Source of the DNA: Siniperca chuatsi
Taxonomy: Eukaryota; Chordata; Actinopteri; Centrarchiformes; Sinipercidae
NCBI RefSeq assembly: GCF_020085105.1
Contig: NC_058056.1
Location: 13,958,929 to 14,022,928 of the forward strand
DNA: 64,000 bases
Direction of reading: 5' to 3'
Shown: piece after piece, positions 9,001 through 61,100 of the stretch
How positions within the stretch are numbered: the stretch's first letter is position 1
How the letters are laid out: each line of letters starts with the position of its first letter
Made by a program: the position numbers and the translations under genes
The notes under the pieces: generated by a model
Database searches by the model: none
What the model saw: only the letters and a program-made list of their open reading frames with translations
Told to the model about the DNA's origin: nothing

Positions 9001-10575
9001 CCTTTATCTGCATGGTCTGGAGCTCCTGGTAGCTGCCCTGTGCTTTGCCCTGCATGCTCCCCAGTTCTTTCTCCATGGCTGCACGTTGCTCTCTCATCAA
9101 GGCCTCCACCCGGCCCGTCTTTTGCTTCTCAACCTGAAGCTCCTAAAGCACAGAGGGAAGAGGGCATATAAAGCAATTCACTGAAACAAATGGAATTATT
9201 CCCAGCAATACGCAGAATAAGTTGGGAATAGATCATTAATCATATCATGTAATTCATTAAGCAGAACATGAGAATCTAGACCTGGCTGAGCTGTTTCACT
9301 TTGTCCTTGGCAATGGAGGCCTCCTCCTGCAGTGTTGTGAGAAGTCTCTCTCGTTCCTGTGCAGCTGGGTCAGGCCTAGCTGCAGACTGGTGGTGAGACA
9401 AATAACGTTAAAAAAGCAGGCATAGCAAGTCCAACTCCACATAGCAGGTCTCCTGCCAAAAGCAAATAGTGTGAAATTGCACTTGTCAAGACCACCTAAA
9501 TCAAATGTATCACTTATTAATCTCTCACTTTGTGCCAGGCATCCAAGGCACTGGGGCTCTTCTCTCGGAGCAGAGCCATCACACTGACAGCCTCAGCTTC
9601 TGACAGAGCCAGGCTGGACAGACCAGACAGCAACTCCTTCAGCTTCACCTCCGTGTTCTCTGTTTAAATACACAAGATAGGGGATGCAATTTAGCACATT
9701 ATTATATGGTTGGACAGTGGATGTGGGATAGCAAAAATAACCAAATACTGGATCAGACTTGTTTTTGCCTCCTACCTTTGTCAGTCTCATTCTTCTGTTT
9801 CTTGCCACTCCCTTTGGATGGTACGTCATCGTTATGGGCTGCCTGGTGGTTGGCAGAAGCTGCTGAGTCAGCCAGAACATGGGCTTCATCTACTGGATTT
9901 GGAAGAAAACTAATTGATTACAAGGCAACAAGTTCAGGCTTCGGTTTGAGCACATGTCCAGATATTTTTAAGAAACTGAGATATAACTTAGCATGTGGGA
10001 CCATTGAATCATCATTACCATGCTCTGTCTTCTGTTTCTTGGCAGAGTTCTTCTTCTTGCCACTGGGAGCACTTGAGGCTGCACCATCCAGAACTTTGGT
10101 TTCAGCCACAATGGGAGCTTCCTTCTTGACTGGAGTTGGACCCTGCTCTGCCTTAACCTCTGGCTGCTGGTCATCCACTGGAAAGGGACAGGTAAGGGAA
10201 TAATACTGTCAGTTTCAGCCAGTCTGCCTCGAGGCTGACAATAGAGGATATTCAATTATCATTACAGGTATTGAAGATGTGACAACCATGGCTAACTTTT
10301 CCAAGAGAATCTAAGTGACACACCCACTTGTAACTGAACTCTTAGCTACTCACCAGGTTCTGCTTTTTGTTTCTTCTTCTCCTTCTTCTTCCCAGAGATC
10401 TGGGGAGGTGTCTGAGCCTGAACAGGAGCCTGAGCGGCTTGTACCTGAACCTGGACCTCAAGCTGGGGAGAGGGAGGGCTGGACTGTTTGCTCGCAGCCA
10501 GAGGTGGCTCTGTCTTGCGGCTGACCAGCTTTGAGCCATTCACTTCTGGCTCCTCAGAAGAGGGGGCTGTAGCTG

Positions 10576-34811: not shown

Positions 34812-35369
<558 letters not shown>

Positions 35370-41204: not shown

Positions 41205-42370
41205 AAAATAGTGCAGAGGATTTTTGCTGTGACACTGTCCATCAAGTTTGTTGCACTGGAGCAATTAGAATGTTTAGAAGAAGTGAGTATTAACAAGGAT
41301 GTGTGTCCTAATGAAAAAGAAGAAATTCCAGATTTACAGCCACTAGGAAGGAGGGCAGTGTCAGTTGAATTTCAAATGCAGAAAAGTAATCGATCAGAAG
41401 CATTAACTATTATGTGCTCATTAAATGAGCTACAGGTACAGGTGTTTTACAAAATACATCAATTGTGAAGTACCCATTTAATTTCATTTCTGGAGGAGAA
41501 GGCGCAGGAAAGTCTCATTTAATAAAAGTAAACACAACAGCTTTGCAATTGGTAATAATGCGTCATTGCCATATCAACATCTAAGGGAGAAAAAAGTAAA
41601 GTAAAGTACATTAAGAGCCAAATCAATCTACAAATACTGGTAGTAGATGAAATTCCCATGGTTAATCAGAAACTTTGGGCCTATATCCATGGCAGACTAT
41701 GACAAACTAAACAATGTGCTGACTTTTCTCCCTTTGGCAATGTTTCTGTTATAGCTGTTGGAGATTTTTATCAGCTGCCACCAGTTAAAGGAAGGCCTCT
41801 TTACACAGAGCAATTAGGGACCAACTTATGGACAAATACTTTCAGTCACACAGAGTTGACAGAAATAGTGCGGCAAATAGACCAAGAGTTTGCCCTGGCA
41901 CTAAATCAACTCAGGAAACATACCAAAGAGGAAAAACTAGTAGAGCTAGAGGATGAAGTGTTATTAAAACAATGTGAGAAAGGCATGGGCGAAGACACAG
42001 AGGACCTTCACATTTTTGCAACAAACAGTGAAGTGCAAACACATAATTTCAATATGTTGCACAAGGTATGTTCAGATATTGTGCAAATTCAAGCTCAAGA
42101 TTTTGATAAAAACCCTCAAATGGGGCGATTTGCACATAAGAATACCAAAGATAAAAAAACATATTTGGATAGATTGCTTAGTGTTAGTACAAAGGCTTGT
42201 GTTATGCTTATCAAAAATATAGATGTTACGGATGGTCTGTTAATGGAGTGTTTGGCACTGTTTGTACTGTGAAATTTGATGGAAATGAGAAAAACAATTT
42301 ATGTCAATTTTGATGATAGAAAGATTGGCAGAAAACTTAAGGTTAAATTTCAATTAGACAAAGCAGTGGT
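41205..42370 (+). mobile_element. decayed Helitron-type PIF1-like helicase fragment
   Basis: Readable pieces match the helicase domain of fish Helitron-type rolling-circle transposons, as I remember them: a stretch before the Walker A region, then VGDFYQLPPVKGRPLY (helicase motif II/III region, 41754-41810), LTEIVRQIDQEFALALNQLRKHTKEE in two successive phrases (41850-41940), ATNSEVQTHN, and KNIDVTDGL (42205-42235). The frame is interrupted several times and the Rep/HUH nuclease half is absent, so it is a dead copy. The longest open piece is 41856-42272. No Helitron 5' TC or 3' CTRR end could be placed with confidence. A cellular PIF1 gene is excluded by the decay and the transposon-type wording. 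Confidence 0.8.
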
Positions 42371-50000: not shown

Positions 50001-53000
50001 AGTCACCTAATGTCCAGAGGTTACTTGTTGTCCTTGGTTGTTGTGACACACAACAGAATAATTAATAGGTGTTTTTTTTTTTTTTTTCTCTTTGGGGAAT
50101 TGTTCTGCAGCTCACAGTGTGATGTATTGCCTCTTGCACAGACTTGACTGATATGTCCAGACTGCTTGGTGGTACAATCCAGACAAAGGAATCACATTAC
50201 TGATCACTCGTTACCTGCTTTAAATATAATTATTTGCATAATCATAAGGTTAACTTTATCTCCCAAGTATACTCTAATGTCATTCCATTATTTATAGGTA
50301 ATTACACAGTTTCAAATCAACACAAATTATATTTAGTCAAATGATGAAAAACTTAATCAGCATGGTGTAAATATTCAAGCCAAGAATGTATCCCTTCTTA
50401 GTGCATTAATATGTAATTAAAGATATGTTCTTCAAAGGTAACTGCTCACAACAGTTGTTTTGTCTAACTGCAGTAAAATATAGTTAACTTTAATTTAATT
50501 GTGCTATTACCCGTCTTCCGCTACCTTCCCGGTCATGTAAACTGCCGTCAAAGCTCAGCCCAGAGAAAGATGAGAAGGAGTTATGGGCCATGACCAATCA
50601 CCCTGTAAAGAGGGAGGACTGGCATAGATACTCTAACATTTAGCTGCACCTCCCCCTGCAGAGGCTGCTGGGAGAGTGACTTTACTGTCTCAATCTGCTC
50701 CCACTGCCCAGCTCGGCTATCAAGACTTCCTTACAGCATTTAACTGCCTTTATGAGGCGCCGTTTTGATTAGGCACCAGGCTCTCGTGTGCCCACTGCCT
50801 CTGCTGTATGAGAGCTTGATTGGTAATCTGCGTCAAACATTTCTAGTCAAACTGCTTATCACATCAGAAAAATAGTGACTGAACTTGGCACTTTTAGTGT
50901 CACCTTCTTCTTACATTTTATGGTAACTGCCCTGGTCTTGCCAAGTGACTTTATGCTTGCTAACACCTTCAGATTAATTGCTCTCCTTTCTGCCATTTCA
51001 GTCATCTGCCTTTCTAGTCATATGCCATGGCTAATGATGTGGTATGGGGCCTCCTGGTGCCAGCCAACCAGTGACTGAGATACTGGTTGCATAGACGGCA
51101 CCAGATGGGCTTTTAGGAGAGTGGATGGACTCATGCATTTGAGTGAAAGATGCTGCGGGACAAATAACATGGAATACTAATTCTTCAATTTGATTCTACA
51201 CAGTTGAGCAGCCAGTTCAGTTGGCCATAAATTTTGGGAGTTTGTCATGTGAATCCTTGGTATATGTGTCCAGGTGAGGGCTTTCCTGCAACCGCCCATG
51301 CAGGGTGTTGTCCTGGAGACCTATGGCAGTGGAAATGCCCCCGATAACCGTCCTGACCTGTTAGAGGAGCTGAAGAAGGCCACTGACTCTGGTGTCATCA
51401 TCATCAACTGCACCCAGTGTCTGAGGGGCACTGTGTCTGCATCTTACGCCACTGGCAAAGTACGTCCAATCCTGACCCACCTTTACTACATTTTGTCACA
51501 TTTTTGAGACTTGAGAATCAATCAAATGACACATTCCTATGACTTCTCAGGTGCTGATGGATGCAGGGCTGATAGCTGGTGGTGACATGACTCCAGAGGC
51601 TGCCCTGTCAAAGCTGTCCTATGTATTGGCCAAGAAAGAGCTTGATCTAACTGCCAAGAAAAAGGTTGGTGTCTACCAGTAACAGGACCTCCACATAGAT
51701 AATAATAATATAAGAAGAAAATAGTGAACAGGTGTGGTGTGTGTGTGTGTGTGTGACACTGTCCAGATGATGAGTCAGAACCTGCGAGGTGAGATGAGTG
51801 CTGACTTAGCAGGAGCCAAGCTGTGTCTGAGCGACAGCCGTTTCATCCAGGTCATCGCCAAGTCTCTGAGCATCAGCTGCAAGGAGGTGAGGGCACCACC
51901 TATACCCAGACTTAAACAGTGCGACCACCTATCGTTTCACCAAACAAACCGTTAATTAGGATTTCCAACAAACCACTTCTTTTCATTTTGCCTTATTTGA
52001 CGACAAAGCCAATTTCTATAAAGGTCATGATTAGACAATTTTGAAAGACTATTCCAAAACTTGTTTAGAAGGTGAAGTTCATTAATTTAAAAAACAATGA
52101 GGTTCAGTCATTACACATTCTGACAAGTAGCAGTTTTCTGATTAAAGTCTGTGGTGTATGCAGGAGCTGGAAGCCATCCGTGATGCCCTGACTCCCCCAC
52201 TGGCATGTGCTGCTGCTAAGATCGGAGACATAGAGGTCTTAGAAGCCCTAAAGGATATGGTAAGCAACCCTACAATCTCTACCACACATATGTGCAGTTG
52301 CTAATCATGACCTGTTTTTGATTGTTAGTCAAGAATATAATAACCCTTTCATACACACACCCTGGGAGTATTGCGGTTTGTTTCTAGGAGTGTTGTACAG
52401 GGAAATGTTCTATGGGCTTATCTTTGTCATACGTGGTCAACGCACACAGGTGAACCTTTCACTCTCGTGATTCACCGACAGATTTCCAGGGTCACTCTTC
52501 CACTATTTGGGGGGGGGGGGTATGGGAAACACACAAAGCCAAACAAAACATGGGGCCAGACCGCTAATACAGGCCTAGAGTTGCCCCAGTGGTCACATGT
52601 ACATGTTTGAATGTGGCTTGACTGGTGTGCTGTCGCTGCTTGGATTACCCTACAGTTTCTAAGGACAAATTAAAAGTACTATCTTTATATTGTTACACTT
52701 TGATAAAAGCTTGACAATTAAATGAAGCCCAGTGGTTGTTTAATACATTTTCCCTCCTTGTGATGAACTTTTGTTTCAGTTTAATTTTCATTTATCCCCC
52801 TACTCCTCATTTATTTGGCTGTAGCCTCTGTTCTGCAAGTGCTGCCGAACAGTAATAAAGAAAGTTACAGAAATTGCTTTTATTGTCAACACATCCCATT
52901 AGGGAAAACTAAAAATAAGTCTGTCTCACAATACTTTCCAACTTCCCTAAACTGTCTGTGGCACTCAGCCCTATTTCCATTTCTTCCCACTGAAAACATA

Positions 53001-59295: not shown

Positions 59296-59842
59296 GTGTC
59301 TCCTGTGATTGCTACTGTGTTGCACCAAACCCTGAAACTCACATGAAACCGTGCATGTGCTGCTCCTGGCTAAAGATTCCGGAGCAATTTCCTATTTGAC
59401 ATGTTTTTCTGTATGAATTAGCGCACCGCTAACCAATTGGTGGAGGTCAGTTCTGTTAGTGTGCAGAGTTCCTTTGTGTTCTCTACAGAAATGTGTTCTG
59501 AATAATAATTGGATTCATTGTGACTGCAGGAGGCCTTTAGGAGGAATACTACATCAAACCCAAACATGGAGCTTGTTTAACACCTTTCTGTGTGAGCTCT
59601 CACTGTCTGACTGAGTTAAATTCACCAGAAATTAGACTAACTCATAAGACAAAGACATGTCATAAAATTCCAAATGTCCATGTGACTTCTCAGCCTGCAG
59701 TGGCTGGTATTTGCTATCTCTATCTTGAGGGCGGCTGCCCCGTCATGCTCCTTGCTGGTGGAACCCAGCTCATCCGGTTGGACCAGCATGGGCCTCATTC
59801 CTCCCTGAATGAGAGGCTTGTATGAACCAAACCCCAAAACAG
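59296..59842 (+). other. region upstream of the miR-203 promoter
   Basis: About 550 bases with no gene. The last 150 bases are GC-richer and probably hold upstream elements for the TATA box at 59843. Confidence 0.4.
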
Positions 59843-59850
59843 TATATAAA
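59843..59850 (+). promoter_or_regulatory. TATA box of the probable pri-miR-203 promoter
   Basis: TATATAAA on the same strand as the miR-203 hairpin and about 300 bases upstream. It predicts a start near 59875. Confidence 0.55.
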
Positions 59851-59874
59851 GAGCTCTTGCAGTCACTGCAGTCA

Positions 59875-59938
59875 CTCAGTCTAGGCAGGGATGACACCAA
59901 GGAAACACCATGGCAAGGACAGAGCTCACCTTCTCCAG
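59875..59938 (+). ncRNA. probable first exon of the miR-203 primary transcript
   Basis: Extends from the start predicted by the TATA box to a donor CTCCAG/GTACGC at 59938. The matching acceptor, after a long pyrimidine run (TTTTTTTTTCTTTCACTAG), is at 60105, so exon 2 begins at 60106 and carries the hairpin. The exon has two ATGs, at 59891 and 59910, the second in near-perfect Kozak context (CACCATGG). Confidence 0.45.
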
Positions 59939-60150
59939 GTACGCATGCTGACACAGAGCTTGTAGTTGGCTGAGGCCCTCTGCTCGTTTTTGTAGATTTA
60001 TCCTGTAACATGTAGGATCTGAAATCTGCTGAAGTGATGCGTTTACTACCAACGGATCACTTCAGGAAACTAATTGTAGTTGCTGTTTTTTTTTTCTTTC
60101 ACTAGTGGAATCAACTGTTTGATGGACGGACTTTGCCCTGAAGAAGTGTG

Positions 60151-60229
60151 TGGTCTCTCTGATTAAGTGGTTCTCAACAGTTCAACAGTTCTTTGAGAAA
60201 ATTGTGAAATGTTTAGGACCACTTGACCA
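60151..60229 (+). ncRNA. mir203: microRNA miR-203 precursor
   Basis: The 3p mature sequence at 60204-60225 (begins GTGAAATGTTTAGGACCACT) is identical, as I remember it, to vertebrate miR-203-3p with the fish-type TTG end. The 5p arm at 60166-60190 begins AGTGGTTCTCAACAGTTCAA. The arms pair around a loop CTTTGAGAAAA, and TGGTC (60151-60155) closes the stem with GACCA (60225-60229). miR-203 is epidermis-enriched and represses p63 during keratinocyte differentiation. Its place just downstream of aspg, same strand, matches human MIR203A after ASPG. The seed TGAAATG is intact. Confidence 0.96.
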
Positions 60230-60259
60230 GTCAGACAAATGCAGTCAGCTTGGGAAAAT

Positions 60260-61100
60260 GCTGCCTTGAATGGATTTTATTATTTATTTTTTTTCAAGCA
60301 AACATCTCTCAAGGCATGACTTTCAATGATTTTAATACAACTGTGATTTCCTCTGCTTTTCTGTTTCCTTAATGTCTCTCTCTGTCTTATGCTCTCATTG
60401 TGCCCCCTTGTGTTACAATACCAACTGCAGTTCAGGAACTGCGGGGGGGGGACGACACTGTAAAAATCATCAGGCTTCAGTAATTTCATTCTGCTGGCAC
60501 ACATGCAAATTTTTAACAGCTCTGCTGCTGCAGTAACACCCGTCTTTTCGCTGCTTTGCTGTTGCAACTATTCAGTACTGATTAAAACAAGTCAATAAAG
60601 AGTCATTTGTCTCTGTTGAGTCCTTGTGGGGTTATGGACTGTGAGTCTACAGGAATGGTCGCTGTCCAAAGTCCTGAAACTTGCTGCTATGGTAAATATA
60701 GAAAAAGCACTGCTTCTGCTGTCGTTTTCCATCTAATATACCAATCTAGAGAAGAATGATGACTATTTTCTGGTCAGTGTAGGTAAATAATTAGACACGG
60801 GTCACCTATTTCTGCTTTTAACTTGATTCACTTGAAATTTCCTGGATTTGTATTCGCTGTTAAACTGATTAAACCACTTTTTAATCCAAACCTGGACTCA
60901 GTTAGACTGTAAATGCCTTAATTAAATTCTAAACACACACGTTTGCATTCCGATCTTTTATTTTCGGGACTAGTTTGATGGGAAAACCTGACCTAGAGAC
61001 TTCAAATCTGCCACAACTCTGGCAAGAAAATCCGAACGCCTTTTCCCCAAGGTATAGGCTACTTTATACTGCATAAATCATTCATGAAAGCACTGTGCAC
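60260..61100. other. intergenic, downstream of mir-203
   Basis: AT-rich, with no gene or repeat that I recognise. AATAAA near 60595 could end the miR-203 primary transcript. Confidence 0.4.

Follow-up and report, generated by a model that had tools for sequence, protein, structure and literature searches.

A likely TATA promoter and a predicted leader intron ahead of the mir-203 hairpin of Siniperca chuatsi

The stretch of Siniperca chuatsi DNA analysed here, 64,000 nucleotides long and called the window throughout, carries a microRNA hairpin near its downstream end. An Rfam search confirmed it as a mir-203 precursor, located at 60153–60232 on the plus strand and matching RF00696 over the full model length with 95.4 bits against a gathering score of 65. 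The antisense of the hairpin (60157–60236, minus strand) likewise scores above the mir-203 gathering score, at 68.1 bits, which resembles the case of the antisense human MIR203B. A search for stray copies with an exact mir-203 pattern returned no matches in the genome-contig collection and none in the viral-contig collection. A review describes miR-203 as a microRNA of epithelia that restrains fin regeneration in zebrafish (PMC4159003). Upstream of the hairpin, an open stretch at 51253–51507 (+) contains an asparaginase C-terminal (ASPG-like) exon, and what is probably the last ASPG coding stretch lies at about 57.9 kb, as read by eye. The mouse miR-203 gene is described as intergenic, with Asp 3.3 kb upstream and Kif26a 15.3 kb downstream, and its primary transcript as polyadenylated (PMC4536367); given the ASPG-like exon, the fish locus therefore has a mouse-like setting on the ASPG side. 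The gene at 63.7 kb, downstream of the hairpin, matched nothing in PDB or Pfam. Elsewhere in the window, an open stretch at 41703–42272 (+) shows weak similarity to PIF1-like helicases (E 8e-5, under the curated cut-off) and is perhaps a Helitron remnant, and an intronless ARF-family GTPase occupies a single open stretch at 34812–35369 (-) (PF00025, E 6e-80).

An earlier note on this DNA had credited mir-203 with its own TATA promoter and a spliced leader, and every coordinate it gave proved correct on direct reading of the sequence. The probable TATA box of the gene, TATATAAA at 59843–59850 (+), is one of two copies of this element on the plus strand of the window, with four more on the minus strand. 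Transcription would begin within 59874–59882 (+), a start region predicted from the TATA spacing and an initiator: the candidate A at 59874 lies 31 nt past the first T of TATATAAA (59843), while TCAGTCT, a full match to the initiator YYANWYY, places its A at 59878, which is 33 nt beyond the TATAAA T at 59845 (the initiator and TATA models are general consensus values). If 59874 is the start, the predicted exon 1, which ends at the donor described below, spans 59874–59938 (+) and measures 65 nt. Placed at a fitting distance from each other and upstream of the hairpin, the two elements look like a core promoter of the TATA type. Such TATA and initiator combinations occur six times on the plus strand and twice, at one overlapping site, on the minus strand of the 64 kb, and seven of these are other than that of mir-203; we judge the combination to be modestly beyond chance. 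Farther upstream, TCCGGTT at 59773–59779 is GRHL-like, about 0.9 such relaxed matches being expected in the 1.4 kb searched. Human MIR203A is bound and regulated by GRHL2 (PMC4757891), and as a control site of miR-203 the fish motif is only a lead.

Human miR-203 is reported to have its own starts and promoter (PMC4319761), as proposed here for the fish gene. The human promoter is GC-rich, at about 70% (PMC4319761), unlike the fish region at 59600–59900, which has 47.5% GC, is CpG-poor (CpG observed/expected 0.18) and bears a TATA box. Canonical TATA boxes are described as uncommon among zebrafish pri-miRNAs, TATAWA being found in 9 in a study that assigned promoters for 152 embryo pre-miRNAs, with starts located upstream at distances between a few hundred bases and tens of kb (PMC4838339). 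On this basis, and considering that 5′RACE gave two products for human pri-miR-203 (PMC4319761), the main start of the fish gene could lie elsewhere, at a distant upstream promoter or by read-through from ASPG, which would make the local TATA a chance occurrence or a minor start. Yet the nearer of the human starts is consistent with earlier work (PMC4319761), and in the window the TATA box, initiator, donor, acceptor, hairpin and poly(A) signal follow one another in that order within about 760 nt, so that we consider a main start elsewhere distinctly improbable.

Between this promoter and the hairpin, a donor, a branch-point-like site, a T-rich tract and an acceptor together predict a 167-nt leader intron at 59939–60105 (+). 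Exon 1 would end at the donor CTCCAG/GTACGC (59938/59939); in the branch-point-like CTAAT the A is base 60073, which leaves 32 nt to the end of the AG; and the acceptor TTTTTTTTTTCTTTCACTAG, which closes with CACTAG after the T-rich tract, ends at 60105, setting the junction at 60105/60106. With donor, branch point and acceptor all upstream of the hairpin, the locus has the layout of an exonic spliced pri-miRNA, judged from the sequence and from the approximate vertebrate frequency matrices with which the splice sites were scored. On that scale, 43 of the 3725 plus-strand GTs equal or exceed the donor (top 1.2%, the site itself counted), and 5 of the 4144 plus-strand AGs equal or exceed the acceptor, which reaches 10.5 bits (top 0.12%, again with the site itself counted). 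For comparison, 14 exon edges were taken from neighbouring genes, their positions being approximate and in part set by eye; all 14 score below the leader acceptor, and 9 of them below the leader donor.

A plainer reading would keep the promoter and dispense with splicing, the splice sites being look-alikes and the leader plain 5′ flank, about 290 nt of it before the hairpin. It gains from the fact that, at looser cut-offs, a donor/acceptor pair is found in 113 of 6370 window stretches; it is weakened by the branch-point-like site at a fitting distance and by the rarity of a pair of this quality, which only 1 of 2000 leader shuffles equalled and which, for sites 70–300 nt apart, occurs twice on the plus strand of the window, that of mir-203 included, and never on the minus strand. 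Among overlapping 312-nt stretches of the window, 12 of 6370 hold an equally good pair, some of them covering the mir-203 site itself. By these sequence measures the quality of the pair exceeds chance, and we regard an unspliced transcript as rather unlikely. The sole other equally good plus-strand pair, at 10192–10395, faces what looks like coding sequence of a ribosome-receptor-like gene on the minus strand and therefore may be chance. Because the TATATAAA/initiator match is joined by so rare a donor/acceptor pair, it is likely that mir-203 has its own TATA promoter and a 167-base leader intron. The promoter and the leader intron proposed in the earlier note thus have the support of the splice and TATA signals and of the intergenic, mammal-like setting, while the intron stays a prediction.

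The predicted intron has a more stable fold than 196 of its 200 shuffles (z −2.36), and an inverted repeat inside it, at 60029–60065, forms a stem of about 14 pairs. We rejected a second microRNA at this place, as a stem of that length is short for a precursor under the minimum-size rule for microRNA precursors and Rfam gave nothing there at E up to 1. A repeat piece was rejected as well: the matches of the leader within the window are confined to itself, its inverted arms and weak short sequences. The hairpin could also be rendered intronic by an acceptor ending at 60298, a possible arrangement, but one whose acceptor scores 5.7 bits against the 10.5 of the leader acceptor. With the leader acceptor in use, the predicted exon 2 would carry the hairpin and extend over 60106–60615 (+), where AATAAA at 60594 is followed by GT-rich sequence; its end is approximate and one that we infer, since AATAAA-type hexamers are common in this region.

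A DNA search of the animal's own genome (718,788,923 bases in 65 contigs, the window lying in C15), with 59750–60400 as the query, matched two places, the window itself and C16:28445390–28445464, a second mir-203 copy that scores 74 bits for RF00696. This copy has TATAAAG 66 nt before its 5p arm, whereas the TATA box in the window stands 323 nt before its own. The C16 box is mildly unexpected, because such boxes are rare per 100 nt (TATAAAG 0.007 and TATAWA 0.10 in the window, TATAWA 0.14 in the C16 flanks). No full initiator is present 26–36 nt after TATAAAG, and the stretch from TATAAAG to the hairpin lacks an ATG and any acceptor scoring more than 3 bits. If TATAAAG is the promoter, the C16 copy would therefore have neither a leader ORF nor a leader intron, which lends some weight to an unspliced transcript in the window too. 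With TATAAAG so close upstream, the C16 copy speaks for a local promoter in the window as well, though not strongly, as a full initiator is missing at 26–36 nt; with no acceptor above that score before the hairpin, it gives the intron no backing. Alternatively, since donor-like CAGGTGAGT and CAGGTGTGT lie upstream of TATAAAG, with good acceptors following 266 and 291 nt after the 5p arm begins, it is possible that the C16 hairpin sits within an intron of a longer transcript.

Outside the hairpin the two copies differ strongly, so that loss of elements in one of them is possible. A promoter block common to both was considered and proved borderline, as equally good alignments came from 49 of 1000 shuffles and from 83 of 1502 window stretches; with the TATA part removed, 158 of 1000 shuffles gave one. 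A CCGGT element is found upstream of the C16 copy as well, and its alignment with the GRHL-like site of the window is borderline. Within about 50 nt upstream of the C16 TATAAAG there are also four CAGGTG motifs, which we take to be E-boxes of the ZEB/SNAI repressors.

Across the predicted junction in the window run two short reading frames. One opens at ATG 59910, in the context AACACCATGG with A at −3 and G at +4, and extends to 60166 (+), comprising 29 codons once 59939–60105 is removed and 13 without splicing; the other opens at ATG 59891 and closes with the TGA at 60139–60141 (+), comprising 27 codons when spliced and 24 when not. The spliced lengths are those that the earlier note had given, but its further claim, that neither frame is comparably open without splicing, fits the first frame and fails for the second, which hardly depends on splicing. 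Its coordinates for the TAA of the 59910 frame (60164–60166) are exact, and this stop ends where the stem of the Rfam model begins (60166, model position 14). The family consensus at this spot is ccA, and by that measure a stop at the hairpin foot is not a mir-203 family feature.

The lengths of the frames are those that chance readily supplies. Among 5000 shuffled spliced leaders, 36% contain an ORF of 29 or more codons, 31% an exon-1 ORF running well past the junction and 2.2% two such frames, while 6% contain a frame at least 29 codons long whose start has A/G at −3 and G at +4; shuffles that keep both ATGs attain both frame lengths together in 7%. Of 20,000 random joins of same-size window stretches, 24% carry a junction-crossing ORF of at least 27 codons, and 1.8% carry two. 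In this comparison, which was picked after the frames had been seen, either frame alone is ordinary and their overlapping occurrence is mildly unusual.

It is from the paired frames and the start context of ATG 59910 that a translated leader, which would control the primary transcript through its peptide or through translation as such, draws its appeal. Small ORFs are reported to alter the levels of human pri-miR-155 and pri-miR-497 and of Drosophila pri-miR-8 (PMC9144653), and translation-linked control is therefore a legitimate idea. The mir-203 leader resembles these miPEP systems in having short ATG frames upstream of the hairpin (PMC9144653) and differs from them in that nothing found here points to translation, conservation or an effect of its frames. 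Neither frame is longer or better kept than chance would make it, and neither leader peptide matches Pfam or finds a significant counterpart at the C16 locus (best E 0.12 and 0.20). As the C16 copy has no ATG between TATAAAG and the hairpin, neither frame is common to it, and a comparison of the two copies indicates that neither frame is needed for a mir-203 gene. Searches of an open-licence literature collection turned up no title or opening of an abstract that concerns a spliced fish pri-miR-203 or a miR-203 peptide. Weighing the chance-like lengths, the 24 codons that the 59891 frame keeps unspliced, the ccA consensus and the want of a counterpart in the second copy, we find a micropeptide from the mir-203 leader unsupported and functional frames very improbable; the earlier note had allowed for chance as well, and that is the best reading of both frames, which we judge incidental. 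Junction-dependent NMD through the leader intron was also considered. Under the usual rule, a stop past the last junction does not trigger it; here the stops begin 33 and 58 nt beyond the only predicted junction, and junction-dependent NMD is therefore not expected.

Taken together, the sequence features suggest that the locus is probably a compact, autonomous Pol II gene for miR-203 with a TATA/initiator start, probably one intron, an exonic hairpin and incidental ORFs. The core promoter (59843 to about 59878) would give rise to a capped RNA polymerase II transcript that probably undergoes a single splicing event (59938 to 60106) and would receive its poly(A) tail near 60615. Drosha, which acts in the nucleus, would excise the hairpin in exon 2 whether or not the transcript has been spliced. 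If the leader intron is used, its most likely role is that of a general co-transcriptional aid to expression or processing, and should spliced molecules arrive in the cytoplasm, any translation of the short frames on them would be a by-product. Of this picture, the analysis shows the identity of the hairpin, the signals with their coordinates, the comparison with chance and the second genomic copy; the start, the splicing, the poly(A) site and the role of the intron are what we infer. A bolder scheme would have a TATA-proximal mir-203 gene of this fish lineage carry a structured 167-nt leader intron and would have those of its spliced transcripts that escape Drosha translated from ATG 59910, with ribosome and Microprocessor mutually exclusive on one RNA and splicing deciding how much miR-203 and how much of a 29-residue peptide the skin makes; were it true, termination of the ATG 59910 frame would fall exactly on the foot of the hairpin, but we find the scheme scarcely credible.

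The compact gene that we favour would be of an already known kind, the autonomous, spliced exonic pri-miRNA. In Rfam family, intergenic position and place downstream of ASPG it resembles mammalian MIR203A and mouse Mir203 (for the mouse, PMC4536367). Exonic spliced pri-miRNAs include BIC/pri-miR-155, pri-miR-146a and pri-miR-22, whose spliced and unspliced forms are both reported to be cleavable and whose spliced forms are partly cytoplasmic (PMC3779153), as well as pri-miR-122 (PMC11347158); for zebrafish pri-miR-9-1/6, 3′RACE products match spliced transcripts (PMC4838339). Like all of these, the mir-203 gene would be a Pol II unit with an exonic hairpin that can be joined to an upstream exon; unlike them, its whole predicted unit is about 740 nt, its intron is 167 nt and its splicing is predicted.

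For studies of microRNA genes more broadly, the locus illustrates that short frames in pri-miRNA leaders need to be weighed against chance before peptides are claimed. A TATA-type, CpG-poor promoter in the fish would offer a contrast to the GC-rich human one, and the compact unit of promoter, intron and hairpin would provide a directly testable gene model for the control of miR-203 in fish skin.
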